Origin: Bacillota bacterium
GTDB taxonomy: Bacteria; Bacillota; Sulfobacillia; DUMF01
Direction: 5' to 3'
Assembly: GCA_012840015.1 (NCBI GenBank)
Contig: DUMF01000010.1
Location: 1 to 64,000 of the forward strand
DNA length: 64,000 bases
Positions 13,287 through 29,276 of this stretch are shown one piece after another; within the stretch, counting starts at the first letter, position 1; every line of letters starts with the position of its first letter. The position numbers were made by a program, and so were the translations under genes. Below the pieces are notes generated by a model. It was not told the origin of the DNA. It searched no databases and saw nothing but the letters and a program-made list of their open reading frames with translations.

Positions 13287-13717
13287 TCCTCCTCCCAACA
13301 ATCAGGCCAAGCGTTTGTCTCAGCGACCAGCTCAGGCACAAGGCGCAACCCACCGTTGTCCTTCGCTGGGTAATTCATAATGTTACCGATTCTGAGTGCT
13401 GTAGGGGCTCGGAGATGTGCTCGCCCCTTCCAGGTAACACCGAAACCAGAACGCAGGTGCCCGCCTCCCAACGGCTTTCTTGCGCCTCTCTCTGTCGTCG
13501 TCCCCTGCGACAGCGCTGCAGACCTGGGGGACCGACGACACTCCAGACGGGGCTCAGGACGGGGGGCCGGTAAACGCGGCCCCGCAGTACAACCCCCGGT
13601 CGCCGTCCATGGGAACGACCCTCCCCCTGAAGCCGAGCCGGGACCGACCCACACCTCCTTCAGCACGGCCCAGATGCCGACCTTGCGCAGGTTGGCCCGC
13701 CCGAAGGAACTCCCGTC
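13287..13717. other. GC-rich intergenic stretch
   Basis: Long open frames occur on both strands only because the GC content is high. None has an SD or a domain. The plus-strand DUF1670 reading begins at about 13718. Nothing else can be supported. Confidence 0.35.
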
Positions 13718-14402
13718 ATGGCACCCCTCACGCCTCACCCAGGGGATCTGCGCCGCATCGAAGCCGGCAGTCTCTTCTGGGACCGCAAGGGCGTGCTGCC
13801 CGCCCCCCAAAGAATCCCCGGGGCAGGAGCGGGAAGCCTTCTTGGCCCTGCTGGGGCAGCGGCACGGCTACACCCCCGCCTCCTCGGAGCGGTTCTGCCA
13901 TGAGGTGAGCGACCTCGCCTACCGGATCTCCCGCCGGCACCGGGCCTCAGGCCAGGTGGTGTACTTCGGGGTGTCGAGCGCAGAGCCCCCGGGGAAGAGC
14001 CTGCGCGACTGCACCCTGTGGGAGGTCATCCCGGACTACGTCACCCCGGAGGACTGGGCCCTGGTGAACCAGGAGAGTCCCCAGGCGCTCAAGTGGGCGC
14101 GGCTGCAGCGTCTTGCCACCTCCGCCTATGCACAGGGCGTGGCCCTGTCGCTGGCCGACCTCGCCTTCCTGCTGGGGTTGTCCACCGACGCGGTGGCGAA
14201 CTGCACGAAGGAGCACCCCAAGGTGGTGCTGCCCATCCGGGGCCGCGTGGCCGACATGGGCCCCACGCTGTCGCACGCGGAGAAGATGATCCGGCTGTTC
14301 ATGGACGGGTACACGGAGACGGACATCGTGCGCCGCACCGGCCACAGCTACGAAAGCATCGAGCGGTACCTGATCGACTTGCCCGCGTCACCTACTGCCT
14401 GA
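13718..14402 (+). pseudogene. DUF1670 protein (first copy), frameshifted
   Basis: The N-terminus reads from ATG 13718 (MAPLTPHPGDLRRIEAGSLF) and shifts frame near 13835 into the body: VSDLAYRISRRHRASGQVVYFGVS, TLWEVIPDYVTPEDWALVNQ, LADLAFLLGLSTDAVANCTKEHP, GPTLSHAEKMIRLFMDGYTETDIVRRTGHSYESIERYL. This is the order of a DUF1670 protein, with two helix-turn-helix-like segments at the end. The function of DUF1670 is unknown; the HTH pattern suggests DNA binding or a transposon origin. A second copy lies 270 bases downstream. Confidence 0.7.
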
Positions 14403-14430
14403 ACCTCGGGATGCCGTACCCGCGGTGAGG

Positions 14431-14589
14431 ATGGCCGTGGGCAGGTCGCGCAGGCTGGTGGAAAAGTACGCGGCCCTCTACCGGGAGTTCACGGCCACGG
14501 ACGACTACATCTTCCGCATGGCCAGGATCCGCCGGATGGCCGAGGCCCACCCCCCGGAGAAAAAGGGGCCCCCCAAGGAGATACAGTGA
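14431..14589 (+). CDS. 52-residue ORF between the DUF1670 copies
   Basis: The frame MAVGRSRRLVEKYAALYREF ... DDYIFRMARIRRMAEAHPPEKKG is mostly charged helix. GTG at 14425 (two codons earlier, GTGAGGATG) is an alternative start. There is no strong SD. It runs in the same direction as, and between, the two DUF1670 genes, so it may belong to the same mobile or regulatory unit. No family is recognised. Confidence 0.45.
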   Translation: MAVGRSRRLVEKYAALYREFTATDDYIFRMARIRRMAEAHPPEKKGPPKEIQ

Positions 14590-14670
14590 CCCGAGAGCGG
14601 AAGGGGAGCGAAAGGTACGCGACCCTTCCCGCAAGAGATCTTCTGCCAGTCCAGGTGTCCCCACCTAAGG

Positions 14671-15851
14671 GTGCGGTTCGAACTGGCTCCCCAGTCATAC
14701 CTCGCGGAAGCCGTGGCCCGGATGACCAACGAGGCCATGGAGGCTTGGGAGAAGCAGCACGGGGTCGAGCGGGTCAGGCCGGGCGAGATGCTCGTCACCT
14801 ACCAGGGCAAGAATGTGAGGCTGCCCCTGTTCGATCCCTGGACCATCTCCCGCCTGGGGGAACTGAGGGTGGAGGCGGTGAAGCGCCAGATCGAGCACCT
14901 GGAACTGGAGCGGCTGCAGGCGGAAAACCCTGGCGCCACCGTGCAGGACGTGTGGCAACTCCTGGACCAGGGCGAACTGGCTAGGCAGCGGGGAGCCAAG
15001 GGTAAGGACTTTCTCCCCGAGGAGCCCATCTCCGCCGACCAGTTGCCCCAGGTGCCCAGGAGGCCGGAGGCCGCCGACCCGCCCAGGGAGGTCCTCACCC
15101 TCCTGTTCAGCAAGCTCGAGTCGGAGTACGGGTGCAAGCCCGCCCAGGCCGAGGGACTGGTCAGGACGGCGGCCGAGGTCCGGGCCTGGTGCTGCCCGGA
15201 GGTGTCGGAGCTACAGCCCGGGCAGGTGGTGTGGCTGGCCCACGGCACCCACCGCAGCCGCCGCACCAACCCCCGCCTGTTCGTCCCCGTGGTGCTCACG
15301 CTCCTCACCCGCGAGGAGATGGAGCGCCCGCCGTCGAGCAGGGCGGAACTGAAGCGGCTCAAGATGAGACAGCTCGAGCGCATCACGGCCGAGGCGTGGC
15401 GGCAGGACGGAGTGCTCACCACCGTGGACCTGGAGTGGATATTGCACATCAGCCCGGGGCTCATCCGCGAACTCCTTGACGCGTACCAGGAGCGCTTCGG
15501 GGGGTGCTGCTGCCCACGGCCGGCACGGTGCTGGACATGGGCAGGACGCTGACGCACAAGACGATCGTGGTGGAGCTGGCCCTGCAGGGTCTTTCCACCA
15601 CCGAGATCGCGCGCAGGATATACCACGCCCCGTCCTCAGTGGACGCCTACCTGCGCCTGTTCGACCGGGTGCTGATGCTGGTGTACTACCGCATCCCCGA
15701 AAAGGCCATGCACCGCATCACCGGCACCAGCCCCGGTCTCGTGAAGGAGCACCTGGAACTGGCGAAGAAACACTTCCCCGACCCCGACGCCATCAAGAAC
15801 TACCTGGTCAGCCGCGGCGTCAAGGTCGAGGAGCTTGCTTCGGGAGTTTAG
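14671..15851 (+). pseudogene. DUF1670 protein (second copy), frameshifted
   Basis: Begins at GTG 14671 (MRFELAPQSYLAEAVARMTNEAMEAW). Body: LQPGQVVWLAHGTHRSRRTN, LFVPVVLTLLTREEMERPPSS, LKRLKMRQLERITAEAWRQDGVLTTVDLEWIL. At a run of six G near 15500 the frame shifts by one, and the domain continues as LLPTAGTVLDMGRTLTHKTIVVELALQGLSTTEIARRIYHAPSSVDAYL to KHFPDPDAIKNYLVSRGVKVEEL and a stop at 15851. It is the more complete of the two copies; a single-base change in the G-run restores about 390 residues. Confidence 0.75.
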
Positions 15852-16065
15852 CTGTAATCCCTAGAAGGGCCGGGAACGTGTCGAGTCCGAGGTGCTCCCC
15901 GGCAGGGTGAGGTAGCCCACCGGCAACCCCTCCCCCGCGTGGTCATTACCCCCAGCACCAGCTGCCTCGAGTCAGGCCTCCTGTCCCGGCTGTGGCCGAA
16001 GGCGCAAAGCTGCTCGGGACCATCCCCCTCGAAGTACACGCTGGTGGTGTCAAAGACGCATCAGG
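15848..16065 (-). mobile_element. IS1634/IS4-type transposase fragment
   Basis: The minus-strand frame gives VFDTTSVYFEGDGPEQLCAFGHSRDRRPDSRQLVLGVMTTRGRG. This is the region around the first catalytic aspartate of IS1634-like (IS4-superfamily) transposases, where a DxTSxYFE...FGYSRDxRPD pattern is usual. It is cut off on both sides and ends at a stop at 15848, so it is only a scrap. It lies between the DUF1670 pair and the repeat protein gene. Confidence 0.65.
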
Positions 16066-21369: not shown

Positions 21370-22619
21370 TGTAAAAACTAAAGCCCGGGAACTCCCGATT
21401 CCATGCCCGGTCCACGGCGCTCTTTTGCTGGTTCACCTTCAGCCTCAGTCGCCTCTCGAGAACCCGGCTCGCCGGCTCCGTACGTGAATGTTAACATCGC
21501 CCGCATAGCGTACGAACCGGTGGCCGCGCTTCTCCAGCTCCAGTCGAGGTCGTCCAACAGGATGTTGGCAAGCAGCAGGCTCAGGGGGCCGCCCTGCGGC
21601 GTCCCTTCCCCCCGCTCCACTACCACCCCGTTGACCATCACCCCCGCCTGGACCCGCTCGTCCTGAACACTGCGGGCCACCCGGGCCATGAGAATTCGTG
21701 GTTGACCCGGTCGAAAAACTTCTCCAGGTCCACCACCCAGTCAAAGCCCGCCTCCGTGTACAGGCGCGCCATCCGAACCGCCTCCCCGGCACTCCGGTTG
21801 CGTCGATACCCATAGCTCCCCCCGAGAATGTCGGGTCAAAGATCGACGTCAGCACCTGCAACACTGCCTGCTGGATCAGGCGGCCTAAAACGCTCGGTAT
21901 CCCCAACTGCCGCACGCCTCCCCCGGGTTTCGGGATTCCGACCCGGCGTACCGGCGCGGGCTTATAGCTCCCCTCAAGCAGTCGCCTGCCGATTTCAGGC
22001 CAAACACCCCGCAGCTGTCCGCGGAGTCCTTCCACCCTCATTCCGTCCACGGCCCGCAGCGCCTTTGTTCTGCTCCACCCGCTTAAGCGCGAAAATCATG
22101 TTCTCGCGGACCACCACCTGTTCCATTAGGTCGCTACATGTTACCTCGCGGGATGATCCTCCGGTCCCCTCCCAGGGTTTCCCGCTCTCCTCGCCCGCCA
22201 CTCGAACGCACCGGCTCACCCATTCCTTCGTGTTCGGCCCTTCACGTCAGGTCATAGCCCCGCCGGTACTACGGCCTCCGCTGACGTCTGCCGGCTCAAT
22301 CGGGCCTTGCAGCCCGGCTTACCAGCCTTGCTGGCCTTCCCGGCAGACCTCCCCGGGTGAGAACGAGCACTTTCCCCGTACACCCGCCACGCCTACACCG
22401 CCGCCCTTCGGCCAATCTCGGGCTTCGCCTTGTATTGCAGGCTCACCCAGGCGACGTTGCCTCCCTCGTGGTTCGTGTTCCTCGGGTCGCGGCTTTGCCT
22501 CCGGCTCCCTTCGGATTCCGCGTTCGCCGCACACACCCTTGCACTCGGGCTAACGGTTCTACGTGGCCACTGCCCGTAAGGGACTTCCACCCTCTAGCAC
22601 TCGCCCATGCCGGGCGCAC
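21370..22619 (-). mobile_element. Group II intron remnant
   Basis: The 5' end on the minus strand is GTGCG at 22619, matching the GUGYG intron start. About 490 bases of structured leader follow, with typical intron segments (GGTGGAAGTCCC, GTGTGCGGCGAACGCGGAATCCGAAGGGAGCC, CGACCCGAGGAACACGAACC in pieces), before the reverse transcriptase frame at about 22126. The RT is cut off near 21378 and no domain V/VI 3' end is seen, so the intron is truncated and not mobile on its own. Confidence 0.75.
21378..22126 (-). pseudogene. ltrA: Group II intron reverse transcriptase/maturase, broken
   Basis: Begins near ATG 22126 (MEQVVVRENMIFALKRVEQNKGAAG), then shifts frame into DGMRVEGLRGQLRGVWPEIGRRLLEGSYKPAPVRRVGIPKPGGGVRQLGIPSVLGRLIQQAVLQVL, the RT fingers (RT0-RT2). 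Later pieces: FDWVVDLEKFFDRVNHEF in another frame, GTPQGGPLSLLLANILLDDLD (RT4), and RYAGDVNIHV where the catalytic YADD should be (D changed to G). Maturase and endonuclease domains are missing. Non-functional. Confidence 0.8.
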
Positions 22620-22739: not shown

Positions 22740-22799
22740 TGGTGTCGGGAGCGGGACTTGAACCCGCACGGTGTTCACCATACGCCCCTCAAACGTACG
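22740..22799 (-). repeat. Attachment-site copy: 60 bp of the tRNA-Leu(GAG) 3' part
   Basis: 60 bases identical to 29192-29251, running from the CCA end through the T arm and variable arm into the anticodon arm of tRNA-Leu(GAG). The D arm and 5' acceptor strand are missing, so this is not a tRNA gene. A direct repeat of a tRNA 3' end with an integrase gene beside the intact tRNA is the signature of a site-specifically integrated element; the two copies bound about 6.45 kb. Confidence 0.85.
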
Positions 22800-22943: not shown

Positions 22944-23171
22944 TCAAGCGAGAAGGTTTTTGAACTCGTCAACGGTTAGTCCAGCCTGTCTTAAGATAGA
23001 CCTCAAAACCTCCTGCTTTATGTCCCTGTTACCGTGATAAGGAACAACAGTCCTTCTGCCGTCTGGGTGGCGGAGAATGTAATGGCTGCCGGTCACATGG
23101 TCAACCTCAAAGCCAAGTTTCTGCAGGGCGGCAATGACTTCCCTCGCCTTAAGAACAGGTAGCTTCACCAT
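22944..23171 (-). CDS. hicA: HicA-type mRNA interferase toxin
   Basis: 75 residues with the HicA double-stranded-RNA-binding-like fold: VKLPVLKAREVIAALQKLGFEVDHVTGSHYILRHPDGRRTVVPYHGNRDIKQEVLRSILRQAGLTVDEF. The histidine in GSHYILRH is the expected active-site residue. It starts two bases after the end of hicB, so the pair is one operon with antitoxin first. HicA cleaves mRNA and is neutralised by HicB. The pair lies just inside the left attachment site and could stabilise the island. Confidence 0.93.
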   Translation of the reverse strand: MVKLPVLKAREVIAALQKLGFEVDHVTGSHYILRHPDGRRTVVPYHGNRDIKQEVLRSILRQAGLTVDEFKNLLA

Positions 23172-23173
23172 AT

Positions 23174-23401
23174 TTAGGCTACGTCCACTGTAATAGTCTC
23201 TACTTCCGCTTTCTCAAAGCCAAAGGGTAGCGGCTCTCCATGTTTTTTCAGACTCTCGATGTACCCTCTTATGGCGTCCTCAGCCATTGCCAAAGCTTCT
23301 TCCTTAGTCTCCCCCTGCGTGACGCAACCCGGTAGTGCCGGTACAGAAGCAATATAGCCTCCTTCTTCGGCGGGTTCGATGTAGACAATAAAGCGGGCCA
23401 C
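23174..23401 (-). CDS. hicB: HicB-type antitoxin
   Basis: About 75 residues from GTG 23401 (AGGAGGGG five bases upstream; the longer frame to 23419 is not supported). The sequence FIVYIEPAEEGGYIASVPALPGCVTQGETKEEALAMAEDAIRGYIESLKKHGEPLP is the RNase H-like HicB fold. It lacks the C-terminal DNA-binding helix of longer HicB proteins, so autoregulation may be weaker. It pairs with hicA, two bases downstream. Confidence 0.93.
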   Translation of the reverse strand: MARFIVYIEPAEEGGYIASVPALPGCVTQGETKEEALAMAEDAIRGYIESLKKHGEPLPFGFEKAEVETITVDVA

Positions 23402-23460
23402 GTGCTCCCCTCCTAACACGTATTCCAGTCGCTACATAGTATGCCTTGGTTAAGTAAGTC

Positions 23461-24591
23461 TTAGCTTTCCTGTGGGCAAAATCCTGCACAGGTTTTAGGT
23501 TTTCGGAGTGACTTCTCCTCACGGAGCTGGTTACTCTGGTCTGTAAAACAGTCGCTGGCGTGCGGTCCCCGTATTCTCTTCATGACGTCGAAATAGGCCT
23601 TCTTCGCACCATTCCAGGTGCGAAGGGGCTTATCTGGATGCCGCTGATTGAATTCGTTCCGAATCGTCTCCCAGAAAACCGATGCACCCTCCTGACCTTT
23701 CGACGGCGGACCTCCGCAGTCGTTGACCAGCCTCCATATGGTGGCGTGGCAATCATTGAACGCTTTCTTTTTGATCTTTCCAAAGAACTCATTCAGTTGG
23801 CCTCTAAGGCTCGTCCATTCAGCTTGAGACAAATTCGCTCTGAACGTGACGGTTAGCTGCTTGGCTGTCAAGCCTGGAACTGTAACCCCTTCGTATTCAA
23901 GCTCATTACAGCAACAGAGAGACGTACGGGTGGTAACTGGCGGTACCAACGGTTTTCTGCCTGTTAGAATCCAGCCCACAACCCCAGCTTGAGAGAAACC
24001 TGTCCCCTCGCTGACCCTGCGGCTCCAATACTCGAGTAAGCTGAGAGGGGTTTTTGCCCAAATTGGGACACGATGGACCCAACCATCTTCTCCGGGATAC
24101 GGCAATGAGCGGGTCTCGAGCCATACACCAAGGTCGTACTTCAGGCTGAGTTCCCTGACTAACTCATACGCTTTACGTCGCTCCTCCCCGTACTCCGCTA
24201 GCTTTCGCTGGCGTTCTTGTTCGGCCGTCCTCTCTATCCACTCTCCTGCCTCGCGGATTGAAGAGAACGGCGGTTCTTCAGTGGAGAACAGTTTCTTGCG
24301 TAGTACCTTACATAATGGCAATAGGTCCGCCAGCAGCATCTCGCTATTGATGATTGCTGAAAAGGCCAGTGACTTGTGCAGGGGGCTACCATCCGCGGCA
24401 TCTTCATCATCATTTATGTACCGTTCCTGGTACTTCCTCGCTTGTTCTATCACTGCTGAAACATCAGAGCGATAAACCTGCCCGCCCTTCAACGAGCAAA
24501 TATCTTCGCATGCCCACTTGAGATACTCCGACCCTCTCAAATCAGGAGGTGCTTTTTCTTCCGAAAGCCTCATCAGTTCTTGTTTAGTCAT
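23461..24591 (-). CDS. 376-residue protein of unknown function in the island
   Basis: No family recognised. The protein is soluble, Glu/Lys/Arg rich in the first 150 residues with a helical ERTAEQERQRKLAEYGEERRKAYELVREL segment, and has a CCC stretch near residue 225 (TSLCCCNELEYEG). The last third (RTWNGAKKAYFDVMKRIRG) looks like a DNA-binding helix pair but is not diagnostic. It is divergent from the XRE gene at 24686 and next to hicAB. Position suggests an accessory or control gene of the integrated element. Confidence 0.7.
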   Translation of the reverse strand: MTKQELMRLSEEKAPPDLRGSEYLKWACEDICSLKGGQVYRSDVSAVIEQARKYQERYINDDEDAADGSPLHKSLAFSAIINSEMLLADLLPLCKVLRKKLFSTEEPPFSSIREAGEWIERTAEQERQRKLAEYGEERRKAYELVRELSLKYDLGVWLETRSLPYPGEDGWVHRVPIWAKTPLSLLEYWSRRVSEGTGFSQAGVVGWILTGRKPLVPPVTTRTSLCCCNELEYEGVTVPGLTAKQLTVTFRANLSQAEWTSLRGQLNEFFGKIKKKAFNDCHATIWRLVNDCGGPPSKGQEGASVFWETIRNEFNQRHPDKPLRTWNGAKKAYFDVMKRIRGPHASDCFTDQSNQLREEKSLRKPKTCAGFCPQES

Positions 24592-24685: not shown

Positions 24686-24901
24686 ATGCTTACAAATCTT
24701 CGAGTGCTGCGGGTCCGGTCAGGCCTCAAGGCATCAGAGCTGGCCAGGAGGCTGGGACTCGCAGAAACCATGCTGATTCGGATCGAGCTGGCCCAGGCGT
24801 ATGTTCCGCCCAAGTGGCGTCGTCCTCTGGCGGAGGCCCTGGGAGTAGAACCGGAGGCGATTATGGACCCCGCGACGGGGTGGCCGAAGTTGGCCGCCTA
24901 A
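24686..24901 (+). CDS. XRE-type helix-turn-helix regulator
   Basis: 71 residues from ATG 24686 behind GGAGGGG. The whole protein is one Cro/CI-type domain: LRVLRVRSGLKASELARRLGLAETMLIRIELAQAYVPPKWRRPLAEALGVEPEAIM, with recognition helix around residues 27-36. It is transcribed divergently from the 376-residue gene, and the 94-base gap between the genes would hold its operators. It heads the plus-strand replication group (24935-27085) and is likely its regulator. Confidence 0.88.
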   Translation: MLTNLRVLRVRSGLKASELARRLGLAETMLIRIELAQAYVPPKWRRPLAEALGVEPEAIMDPATGWPKLAA

Positions 24902-24934: not shown

Positions 24935-25333
24935 TTGCCGCCCGGCTTGGAGGAGAGCCTAAATGGAGAGATCACCAAAAAGATTCCTGTCCATGCTTGT
25001 GTTGCCGGTCGTTGGGTCGTCGTCGGATCCCTCACCCCCGGCGACCCGCCGGTCTTCACCCAGAAGGTTGGCCCCAGCGATATTCTCCGCATCCGGGGCA
25101 GTGCGGGGATCGATCTCCGATATGATCCCCCTCTGCCTGAAAGCTGCCTGATCCGCCACATCGTCGGCAGCACGGCCTACGAGATCCGGCTCAGTGCACT
25201 CAAAAATCATCCGAAGACCTCCATTGCCCAAATCGGCCCGATGCACCCACGTAGAGCCTATCTGCCATACCGGTACTGGCGTTGCCTAGGCGAACCCGAA
25301 CAGCTCTCGTTCTTCGGGGGGTTTGCGTCATGA
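24935..25333 (+). CDS. Unknown protein upstream of the primase-like gene
   Basis: Frame of about 130 residues: IPVHACVAGRWVVVGSLTPGDPPVFTQKVG, DILRIRGSAGIDLRYDPP, YRYWRCLGEPEQLSFFGG. No family recognised. The best SD (GGAGGAG) precedes an ATG at 24963 that is in a different frame, so either a TTG (24935 or 24947) is used or one base is missing. Its stop overlaps the ATG of the next gene (ATGA at 25330), pointing to translational coupling with the replication gene. Confidence 0.5.
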   Translation: MPPGLEESLNGEITKKIPVHACVAGRWVVVGSLTPGDPPVFTQKVGPSDILRIRGSAGIDLRYDPPLPESCLIRHIVGSTAYEIRLSALKNHPKTSIAQIGPMHPRRAYLPYRYWRCLGEPEQLSFFGGFAS

Positions 25334-27085
25334 GTGCCGTTGCCCCGTGCGACCTCCCCCGCGGTCGTGTCACATACCGCGGTCCTTGGTGGACACCCAG
25401 GCGTTCCGCCGTCCGCACAAAACGGAAAGTGGATCAACCTCCATGATCAGTATGTCCTGAAGGTCATGGAAGGTCAAACCCTGAACGTTTCGCCTGTGGA
25501 TGCGAAGGGAAGATGTCACGCACTAGTTTGGGACATAGACGCCGGTGAAGAAGGGAACGTGCAAAAACTCCTCTCCGTGCTTCCCGAGGGTTGCCGTCCC
25601 CTCGTGTCGCTCAGCGGGAAAAAAGGCTGGCACGTCTGGTTACTTCCCGAACGGCCCATCTCGGTCAGTGATGCCCTCATCATCGGAAAGGGACGTTCGA
25701 GAAAGAAGCGGTGTCAAATGCGAATTCTTCCCAACCGGCAGAAACTCAAGACTGATAAAGTGGCCGGGGTCCCTACATCCCGAAACAAGAGTGCGGGAAG
25801 TGTTCGTGCCCCCGGATGTATTAAACGGCGAAGAAACATTTGACACGGCGTTAGTCTTCCAACTCTTGTCCGAAGGGAAGTACCGAACCCCCGTCAAGTC
25901 TCTTGTCGTATCTCGCTCGACGACTATTCGACGACTATTCGACGAATCGTCAACCGGTTGCCAGCAAAGCGAAAGTGATCCCATGCCTACAGAGCCCGAA
26001 GAGACGGTCCTGGGCAAGCCACTGCCTCCATCTGTCGCAGATGATACTCCGGTCATGCTCGTGGAAAGCCTTGGGGCTCTCACTCGGAGCGAAACAGTTG
26101 TCAACGCGTTGATGCAGCTGGCGGGAAGAGAGCTCGTGCGTTTGGGCAAGAGTTTCAGGTGCATACTCCACAAGGAAAGCAGCCCTTCTGCATCGTGGTA
26201 CAGGGAACCCAAAAACGGGACCATTGTTTATCGTGACTGGCATGCCTCAAAGTATGGTACTCCAGAGGTTCTGCTCCTCGGTGAGGTCTTTTGCGCCTTG
26301 TGCACCGGCGAGGTAAAGAAACTGAAACCACATGAAACTGGGAGGTGGCTGGCGAAACTGGCATTGAGACTCGGATACAGGACACCTCTGGCACTTGAAG
26401 TTGAAGCATTGATGGCGACAGCGACGACCAAAATTGACGCACTCTCCCTCAAAAAGCCTAAAACCCCCCGCCCGAACAATATATTTACCAGTTGTTTGTA
26501 CAACCCGAAGTGGAGATTGAGAAAGGAGATGACGGGGATCCCCAGGTCATTGAGAAAGTATGGCGGGTTTTCTGTGATGAAGCCCTTCTCTCCGCCATGT
26601 CAGGCTTCGGTGAAGTGAAACTAGCCGGCAGGTGGCTTTCAAAACGTGCACGGGTCCCCTTGGATATGGCTAACCGTGCGGTGAACCTCCTGTGTGCCTT
26701 AGGCATCCTCTCAAAAGTGCCGGGGACAGGAGGAATGCGTGGAGACAGGTTTATTTTCGGAGACGCTGATATCAGCGAGGTCGAGAGACGTTGGAAAGCC
26801 TTGGGTAAGCCGTCCCTCAGACGTTTTAACCGAACCCTGGTAATCGAAAGGCTTGGTGAGGACATAGCAAATAGCCTCTTCAGGAGAACTCCCGATGGCA
26901 AACTGATTCGGCCCAAGGCCGTTCGCGATCAACCGGCATCAGGCGATGTCACGCGGGAAGATACCGTCATACCCTCCGAGGACATACCAAGGCTTTCCGT
27001 CTTGGTCCCGGCGGCCACCGGAAAGGTCCTGAATAGTTTTGGTGAGACACTGGTAAGGGTCCGCCATGGGTTTGCTATGGGTTAA
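25330..27085 (+). pseudogene. Primase-polymerase (AEP-like) replication protein, frameshifted
   Basis: Read across three frame breaks (near 25440, 25690 and 26500) this is one protein of about 580 residues. AEP core: HALVWDIDAGEE (hDhD motif), LVSLSGKKGWHVWLLPE (sGxxGxHxW motif), EFFPTGRNSRLIKWPGSLHPET (third motif). A CHC2-like zinc region follows: FRCILHKESSPSASW, TIVYRDWHAS, FCALC. Then a winged-helix-like end: FGEVKLAGRWLSKRARVPLDMANRAVNLLCALGILSK. This order is known from plasmid and phage-satellite primase-polymerases. Whether the breaks are real or sequence errors decides if the island can still replicate. Confidence 0.65.
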
Positions 27086-27088
27086 GTG

Positions 27089-27127
27089 ACCGTTCCCGAA
27101 CGGTTTGCCAAACTGTTCGGGAACGGT
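27089..27127. repeat. 39-bp near-perfect inverted repeat made of two 16-bp palindromes
   Basis: The arms of 19 bases match in 18 positions around a centre at 27108. Each arm contains its own palindrome: ACCGTTCCCGAACGGT (27089-27104) and ACTGTTCGGGAACGGT (27112-27127), centres 23 bases (about two helical turns) apart. It starts 4 bases after the replication gene stop and has no T-run. It looks like a double operator or replication-protein site rather than a terminator. Confidence 0.6.
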
Positions 27128-27613: not shown

Positions 27614-27916
27614 TCAAGCGTCTTCCGCCTTGACGTTGGGAAAGGCTTCTTCAAACGGGACCTTTTTCTCGGGAGGGTCTTCGAACAGCCTGATGGCCTC
27701 CTCCTGGCTGACTGGTTCGAGGTAGTCCCTCTCACCCTGCCAGCAGTGTTGATGTTGGACGAAGTAGTTTCCCCTGGGAGTCTTGAAAAGGAACGTGTTC
27801 CTGCCTTGTCGTTCCCAATTGTGGCCGTCCCAGTAAGCATCCGAAGCAAGGAGTGTAGCTGTCTCCGTCTTATAACGCTTCCCGCCGATTACCACATTCA
27901 TCATGATGGGGTTCAT
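27614..27916 (-). CDS. Small island protein, unknown
   Basis: 100 residues from ATG 27916 after GGGAGG. Sequence such as GGKRYKTETATLLASDAYWDGHNWERQGRNTFLFKTPRGNYFVQHQHCWQGERDYLEPVSQEEAIRLFED is a compact beta-rich fold with a closing helix, like small proteins common on phages and integrated elements, but no named family is certain. It lies between the non-coding part and the integrase, on the integrase strand. Confidence 0.7.
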   Translation of the reverse strand: MNPIMMNVVIGGKRYKTETATLLASDAYWDGHNWERQGRNTFLFKTPRGNYFVQHQHCWQGERDYLEPVSQEEAIRLFEDPPEKKVPFEEAFPNVKAEDA

Positions 27917-28083: not shown

Positions 28084-29006
28084 TCAATAGAGACCCCCTT
28101 TTATCTTGCGGACCCGGTTTCTCCGGGGTAGCAACGCGTTCACGGGTGATGCCAGCGAGTGCTGCTGCCTCAGGTCGTCCTGAGTTATGGCAATGTAACA
28201 ATGCTGAGGTCCGAATGGCCCATTATCCGCTGCAACGCAAAAGCGTTCCCTCCACAACGGAGGAATTGCAGTGCAAAGGCGTGCCGTAGGTCGTAAGGGT
28301 GGATGCGGATACCCAGGGCCTTGCTGTACTTCTCCAGCCTGTCGTCCCAGGTATCGTTGCGTAGCGGGGTTCCTTCCGAAGAGCAGAAGACTGGGACATG
28401 CTCTCCCCACGAAAGGTGCCTCGCAGCAAGCAGCAGGCGTAGGGCCTCTGCTGTCGCAGTGGATACCGGCAAAGTTCTGGAGACTTTGGTCTTGGCAACG
28501 TCTGAACGGACATAGACTTCCATTGAACGGAGGTTTATGTCGTCCTGAAGGAGCGAAAACGCCTCCTTAGGACGAATGCCGGTATCCAGCGTAAGCAGAA
28601 TCAAGGCATAATCCCTGAGGCCGGCAAAAGTATTCTTGTTGGGGAGGCTGATGAGCCTGGAGAGGGTCTCGGCGTCGAGAGGTACGATTCTGCCCTCGTC
28701 TTTCCGCTTCTTGAAACCGTCCAGAGGGTTATCGGCGAAGAATCCCTCCTTAACGCACCAGTCAAAGAATTGCTTCAAGTAGTTACGCCGGATGTTGTAG
28801 GTGGCGGGCTTTATATCCTCCCCGAAAAAGCAATACACCGCTTGCTGGAGTTTTTGCCCTCCCTGCCACGCTTCGGGGTGACGCCTGAAGAAAAGTCTTG
28901 TCACGTCTCCATGTCCCTTGAGAGTGATAGGCCTCAGGCCTTGTGCCTGCTTGAACTGAAGGTACAGCTGCACGGCTTCTTCCCAGGTGGCAGGGACGCG
29001 TTGCAA
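28084..29006 (-). pseudogene. int: Tyrosine recombinase (integrase), frameshifted before the active tyrosine
   Basis: N-terminal SAM-like domain (TWEEAVQLYLQFKQAQGLRPITLKGHGDVTRLFF) and catalytic domain with the first Arg in LDTGIRPKEAFSLLQDDI, HPYDLRHAFALQFLR, and GHSDLSIV. The frame stops at 28185; one base over, the C-terminus resumes as CYIAITQDDLRQQHSLASPVNALL with the nucleophilic Tyr, ending at 28084. The N-terminus may also be shifted: the best SD (AGGAGG) precedes an ATG near 29031 in another frame. It lies 186 bases from tRNA-Leu(GAG), its presumed attachment gene. Confidence 0.85.
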
Positions 29007-29191: not shown

Positions 29192-29251
29192 TGGTGTCGG
29201 GAGCGGGACTTGAACCCGCACGGTGTTCACCATACGCCCCTCAAACGTACG
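29192..29251 (-). repeat. Attachment site within tRNA-Leu(GAG)
   Basis: The 60-base segment identical to 22740-22799. Identity ends in the anticodon arm on one side and exactly at the CCA end on the other, the usual extent of crossover sequence for integrases that target tRNA 3' ends. Confidence 0.85.
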
Positions 29252-29276
29252 CGTCTGCCAGTTCCGCCATCCCGAC
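29192..29276 (-). tRNA. tRNA-Leu (anticodon GAG)
   Basis: 85 bases including an encoded CCA. Acceptor stem GTCGGGA/TCCCGAC, discriminator A, long variable arm (GGCGTATGGTGAACACCGT region), anticodon stem TACGT/GCGTA with loop TTGAGGG, so anticodon GAG. The 3' 60 bases are repeated at 22740-22799, which makes this the attachment site of the island. The gene is complete after integration. Confidence 0.95.

Follow-up and report, generated by a model that had tools for sequence, protein, structure and literature searches.

A frame-broken AEP primase gene in a small tRNA-integrated element of Bacillota, probably a replication-initiation gene of the helicase-less type

Introduction

How elements that depend on a primase and lack a helicase open their DNA is an open question for RepE/RepS and for the PrimHYQ-type primases (PMC5862659). 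The same question is raised by a locus in the window studied here, a stretch of 64,000 nucleotides from contig DUMF01000010.1 of a Bacillota bacterium (assembly GCA_012840015.1). A first-pass annotation of the window, made from the letters alone, had proposed that positions 25330–27085 encode a compact replication protein, in which an AEP core, a CHC2-like zinc region and a winged helix follow one another in pieces scattered over three reading frames. We asked whether these pieces are one gene, what its product could do in the absence of a helicase, and whether the copy in the window is still in use. The family to which the gene belongs offers small, precisely bounded natural elements with intact copies for the question of helicase-free opening; the window genome itself carries a broken remnant.

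Results

The primase gene and its relatives

All of the motif strings quoted in the first-pass annotation were found in the order given within 25330–27085 of the plus strand. The gene, comprising the AEP primase part, a degenerate CHC2-like domain and a winged helix, is interrupted by frame changes at about 25.42, 25.69 and 26.49 kb. The N-terminus (MSAVA...YRGPWWTPRRSAVRT, from 25330 to about 25419) occupies a frame of its own, and its sequence MSAVAPCDLPRGRVTYRGPWWTPRRSAVRT lies in a frame that the first-pass annotation did not list; because of this separate N-terminal frame the number of frame changes is three. AEP motifs I and II are found in a second frame, motifs III and IV together with the CHC2-like region in a third, and the winged-helix stretch (26558–26761) is back in the frame of motifs I and II. 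There are no internal stop codons within the long segments. Directly 3' of the gene lies an imperfect palindrome, CCGTTCCCGAAC...GTTCGGGAACGG (27090–27126), possibly a protein-binding or regulatory site, which we regard as a lead only.

When 61 related genomes were searched, intact relatives were found in G053 (65% identity, E 4e-132) and G035 (49%, E 1e-79), and wider searches added G062, G398, G311 and a G548 copy split into two pieces on two contigs. The match to the G053 protein, which is encoded by one uninterrupted ORF, is far above chance. In all five of the Bacillota genomes G053, G035, G062, G398 and G311 the whole protein, 503–628 aa long, is encoded by a single ORF, thus confirming that the pieces in the window belong to one gene and not to separate, unrelated genes that happen to be neighbours. 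Programmed frameshifting that joins the three frames would fit with the constraint retained in every frame (see below), but the full-length relatives are all single-frame and three separate events would be required; we rejected this explanation as extremely improbable. No relative of the window protein was found in the phage and plasmid collections, where the G062 protein gave one weak match only, to a phage primase (E 0.02). IMG/VR contained neither an encoded relative nor an exact DNA match, and the G053 copy was the only match when GTDB contigs were searched.

In a maximum-likelihood tree of AEP domains the members of the family form a single clade (100/98) that is separate from the TOTE-type proteins; one outgroup row in this tree is long-branched and unreliable. 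The branching departs from host class, with G035, from the same class as the window, pairing with G398 from another class, which fits horizontal movement as expected for mobile DNA. The profile that recovered the family also recovered a reverse transcriptase fused to an AEP (RT-Prim-Pol type) in G595 (L049/L066), and L025 of G202 groups with this RT-AEP protein in the tree.

The AEP core

The motifs that define the AEP superfamily are all present, also in the window copy. Motif I (DID, 25532–25540, plus strand as are the other motifs) contains the DxD that is invariant in all relatives, motif II (SGKKGWH, 25613–25633) carries the histidine of the sxH pattern, and the acidic residue of motif III is the invariant E of CEFF (25719–25730). 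In motif IV (KWPGSLH, 25758–25778) a lysine is followed six residues on by a histidine, completing the 'HKH' signature. In the numbering of the G053 protein the invariant residues are D67, D69, S94-G95...H100, E130, K142 and H148. The combination of the motif II histidine with a K/H pair six residues apart, together with the name ProkHKH, has been described previously (PMC5862659), and H100 with K142/H148 corresponds to it, so we assign the family to the AEPs of the HKH type.

Profile searches agree with this. The Pfam model AEP-TOTE (PF22548) matches six of six members (best E 1.6e-11), the G053 protein scoring 26.3 bits, slightly below the cut-off of 27 bits. PrimPol_Msp, the CAPP model of NCBIfam, picks up five of the six (best 2.4e-10); for the G053 protein the score is 21.8 bits, far below the equivalog cut-off of 200 bits. 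Additionally, a PHROG phage primase matches five members (7.4e-8), the CAPP structure 7nqf was recovered by a sequence profile (5e-6), and PADLOC PrimPol models match the AEP core. An AlphaFold model of the G053 protein built from 24 sequences reached a pLDDT above 90 across the AEP core, and its top Foldseek match was the CAPP Prim-Pol 7nqe (E 5.8e-7, TM 0.67 on the target), followed by the phage S-2L PrimPol and then by LigD and RepB'; the top matches are all AEPs. An earlier model from six sequences had a pLDDT of 59 and no Foldseek match under E 0.001. The complete set of motifs, the AEP fold in the relative's model and the profile matches thus bear out the proposed AEP core, and the similarity holds for the frame-corrected protein.

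The middle domain and the winged helix

The middle domain (26160–26243, plus strand) was delimited in an alignment of ten sequences and contains C-x2-H (CILH, 26160–26171) and RDWH (26232–26243). With few exceptions the pattern C-x2/4-H, PSA, H-D-[WF]-H holds across all ten; in the window copy an Arg replaces the first His of H-x2-H, giving RDWH where the relatives have HD[WF]H. The CHC2 domain (PF01807) has the ligands C-x2-H...C-x2-C; here the first pair is retained as C-x2/4-H and the second is H-x2-H, corresponding to C262/H265 and H285/H288 of the G053 protein. Weak matches to the Pfam model Zn_ribbon_DnaG were obtained for two members (E 0.004 and 0.015), and a profile of the domain run against the PDB gave no CHC2 match. 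The FCALC string at 26289–26303, which the first pass had put forward as part of the zinc region, is YHALC, YHAIA, YCALK, YHALK or YAALE in the relatives; since the residues vary at its cysteines, it is no conserved zinc site and these cysteines are ruled out as ligands. The idea of a CHC2-like region therefore stands as far as the spacing and the weak Zn_ribbon_DnaG matches are concerned and falls for FCALC, and the domain appears to be only a degenerate CHC2-like one, with conserved C/H and H-x2-H residues.

The predicted winged helix (26558–26761, plus strand) is seen in the relative's model with a pLDDT of about 90. Its Foldseek matches are MarR-type regulators with a wHTH; their E-values are weak because the comparison covers only part of the model. 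In addition, the Pfam model MarR_2 matches this end of the protein with E 0.02. The winged-helix C-terminus of the original proposal is in agreement with this prediction.

A profile of the middle domain also found proteins in G078, G075, G130 and G131 (E 2e-37 to 8e-17/6e-17). The G078 and G075 proteins begin with another Prim-Pol, PF09250 (E 1e-19), after which come the same middle domain and then a similar winged-helix end. Judged by these matches, the zinc-like and winged-helix half looks like a module common to two AEP families. As it occurs on two unrelated Prim-Pol cores, a test of its modularity is feasible.

The integrated element

The primase gene lies in an element bounded by tRNA sequence. 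A tRNA-Leu(gag) gene is located at 29192–29276 on the minus strand, and the 60 bp of its 3' part (29192–29251), the right att repeat, recur as an exact direct repeat at 22740–22799, the left att repeat. With this repeat at both borders the window element measures 6.45 kb. Similarly, a 72-bp tRNA-Glu repeat bounds 8.27 kb in G035 and an 80-bp tRNA-Leu(taa) repeat bounds 5.60 kb in G062, so that the window, G035 and G062 each have direct repeats of a tRNA 3' end together with an integrase. In G398 the integrase adjoins a tRNA-Sec, and in each of these elements a tyrosine integrase adjoins an intact tRNA. Two different element copies are held by G311, L040 on contig C83 and L039 on contig C104; the C83 copy, cut by the contig end, is near spoIIE-tilS-ftsH, a gene block also present in the window and G053.

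Reading from the left border of the window element, a HicA toxin (22944–23171, minus strand; Pfam HicA_toxin, E 4e-22) and a HicB antitoxin (23174–23419, minus; HicB_lk_antitox, E 2.5e-11) are followed by a gene for 376 aa (23461–24591, minus) without a Pfam, NCBIfam or PADLOC match. HicAB is also found beside the second G311 copy. No homologue of the 376-aa gene was found in the relatives' elements; the slot that it occupies is variable and holds unrelated or CGNR-like zinc-finger proteins in the relatives, the slot gene being divergent. The conserved part is a cassette on the plus strand, which begins with a Cro/CI-type HTH protein of 71 aa (24686–24901; Pfam HTH_31), with homologues in five other element copies (41–63% identity to the G053 copy). 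It continues with a protein of 122–127 aa (24953–25333; 49–78% identity between elements) and the primase, and this order is conserved between elements. The stop and start codons of the 122-aa gene and the primase overlap as ATGA at five of the six loci (the window, G053, G035 and both in G311; not G062). On the other side of the primase lie a conserved gene for 100 aa (27614–27916, minus; 90% identical in G053 and 75% in G035) and the broken tyrosine integrase (28108–29006, minus; Pfam Phage_integrase, E 1e-26).

Among the ORFs of the delimited elements (window, G035 and G062), neither Pfam nor reading recognised a helicase, relaxase, transfer, terminase or capsid gene; the elements thus differ from conjugative or mobilizable elements and from prophages, and the suggestion that the island has no separate helicase gene extends to its relatives. 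Judged by gene content, the intact copies show the primase, without an adjoining helicase, as the only recognisable replication gene of these elements.

In G053 and G311 the primase gene carries 21-bp tandem repeats within its 3' end (L006 9539–9601; L039 10598–10663), a degree of repetition reached by none of 500 codon shuffles. Their GGYATATCC core is exact in G053 and G311 only, and in the window, G035 and G062 iteron-like repeats were absent or not above codon shuffles. The 21-bp repeats are candidate origin iterons, and could alternatively reflect a repeated peptide.

Two of the elements contain repeats of another kind. The G035 element (L036 13391–13490) contains GTTTCAATCCACGCCCCC twice, at a distance of 66 bp; the copies resemble a CRISPR repeat and may form a one-spacer mini-array; this 18-mer occurs nowhere else in the G035 genome. 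In G398 (L038 4697–4813) two 48-bp repeats, GTTTCTATTCC...GCAGTGGGTGCGGTAATAC, lie 69 bp apart in a CRISPR-like layout.

State of the copy in the window

Between the pieces of the window gene and the G053 gene, dN/dS was 0.23–0.27 in all pieces, as between intact copies. Unique changes at conserved sites were similar in number too, 14 for the window copy against 15 for G053. These values show no sign of relaxed selection on the window copy, which means that the breaks are either recent or errors of the assembly. If they were assembly errors, the gene would be intact and active in the cell, and the unrelaxed constraint, the segments free of internal stop codons and the position of two of the three frame changes in short homopolymers would be accounted for. 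This explanation nevertheless has to contend with the chromosomal neighbours at 29.4–64 kb (ftsH, tilS, spoIIE and others), which are intact, and with the integrase, whose match divides into two frames at 28197: about seven bases are missing and the frame changes at about 28.2 kb, before the region of the catalytic Tyr, which is unlike a homopolymer slip. Further mobile genes nearby, at 21.4–22.2 kb and 13.4–15.9 kb, also look broken. We consider assembly errors unlikely; they would bear on the state of the window copy and are compatible with a replication role of the family. It is quite likely that the window element is real and was recently inactivated, and the primase copy probably does nothing now, because it and the integrase both appear broken.

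At the first of the two nearby loci (21378–22219) there are fragments of a reverse transcriptase of the group II intron type, matched by the Pfam model RVT_1 with E 0.001. At the second (13374–15910) one or more genes are spread over several frames, which looks like another broken mobile gene and which we take to be DUF1670-like in appearance.

Discussion

We conclude that the gene probably encodes the replication initiator of a small tRNA-integrated element and appears broken in the window genome. The most likely way for such a protein to act is as a helicase-less, origin-binding primase working like ColE2 Rep or RepE/RepS. For the intact copies we infer a cycle in which the protein would bind zinc and an origin, prime DNA synthesis and rely on a host helicase, the element replicating after its excision. 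The integrase would excise the element as a small circle, whose origin would be bound by the C-terminal winged helix; the CHC2-like middle domain may help to contact or open the DNA, and the AEP core would lay down the first primer. Copying of this circle would then fall to a helicase and a polymerase of the host, and its return to a tRNA gene to the tyrosine integrase.

The main functional rival, suggested by analogy with the Ppol of ICETh2, is that the protein is not the element's replicase and serves in defence or DNA interference, priming or filling in incoming ssDNA, as proposed for that Ppol or, in adaptation, for CRISPR-associated Prim-Pols. The AEP core is closest to CAPP by fold and profile and is matched by the PADLOC PrimPol models, and in Thermus the loss of the ICETh2 Ppol raises transformation and does not lower replication of the element (PMC7693054). 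The chief warning against a role in replication comes from the same comparison, as ICETh2, the best-studied comparable element that we found, replicates without needing its Ppol. On the other hand, neither cas1 or cas2 nor an argonaute or any further defence gene was recognised in the element, and the neighbouring genes have no PADLOC match. The winged helix and the cassette of HTH protein, 122-aa protein and primase fit a replication module, and so does the 5.6-kb G062 element, where no enzyme other than the primase and the integrase could be recognised. A defence function seems rather improbable to us for these reasons.

If the protein is a replication initiator, a different AEP family with a different C-terminal module appears to perform a job like that of RepE/RepS and PrimHYQ. 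We further propose, tentatively and with somewhat less than even confidence, that the tiny elements (5.6–8.3 kb) integrated in tRNA genes represent a separate lineage, whose entire replication system would be a single protein without a helicase, in which a CAPP-like AEP is joined to a winged helix and to a C/H/H/H domain derived from CHC2, and that the C-terminal half, which recurs on PF09250 Prim-Pols, serves as an exchangeable module for origin binding that would open the origin without an ATPase.

The family resembles several known systems and differs from each of them. It shares the AEP fold, the motif set and the sequence-profile matches with CAPP of Marinitoga (PDB 7nqe/7nqf/7p9j), whereas its members are only about 20% identical to CAPP, have the CHC2-like and winged-helix C-terminal half and reside in tRNA-integrated elements. 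CAPP is associated with CRISPR, cas1 and cas2, and no cas gene was recognised in the window element or the element neighbourhoods that were read. The AEP domain is homologous to that of the AEP-TOTE (PF22548) primases (best E 1.6e-11), but the family forms its separate clade (100/98), and the TOTE helicase, nuclease and other conflict-system domains are missing from the full-length proteins and from the elements. The PF09250 Prim-Pols of G078 and G075 have in common with it the zinc-like and winged-helix half, and belong to an unrelated family in their N-terminal part.

ICETh2 of Thermus thermophilus HB27 is likewise a small element at a tRNA site with a tyrosine integrase and a Prim-Pol, and in some strains with HicAB (PMC7693054). 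However, ICETh2 measures 11 kb and a helicase gene adjoins its Ppol, in contrast to the helicase-less elements described here; its replication does not depend on the Prim-Pol, which restricts the uptake of DNA (PMC7693054). The PrimQH family of PrimPol-PV1 has an AEP, a zinc-binding or PriCT domain, a C-terminal winged helix and a place in integrated elements in common with our family (PMC5862659), yet in most PrimQH proteins a helicase-type ATPase, lacking here, is inserted between the two. A precedent for elements without a helicase is given by RepE/RepS, PrimHYQ and the ColE2-type Rep, which are also single proteins of an AEP and a C-terminal DNA-binding part, with no helicase in protein or element, and for which DNA opening by the C-terminal domains has been demonstrated or suggested (PMC5862659). 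They have PriCT-1 and an HTH, in contrast to the CHC2-like domain and winged helix on another AEP family that we describe, in which Pfam gave no PriCT match. The family is thus not CAPP, since the association with cas genes is lacking, not a TOTE system, since the linked domains are absent, and not RepE/RepS or ColE2, since there is no PriCT-1. It is best read as a distinct lineage of helicase-less primases, a type that is already known.
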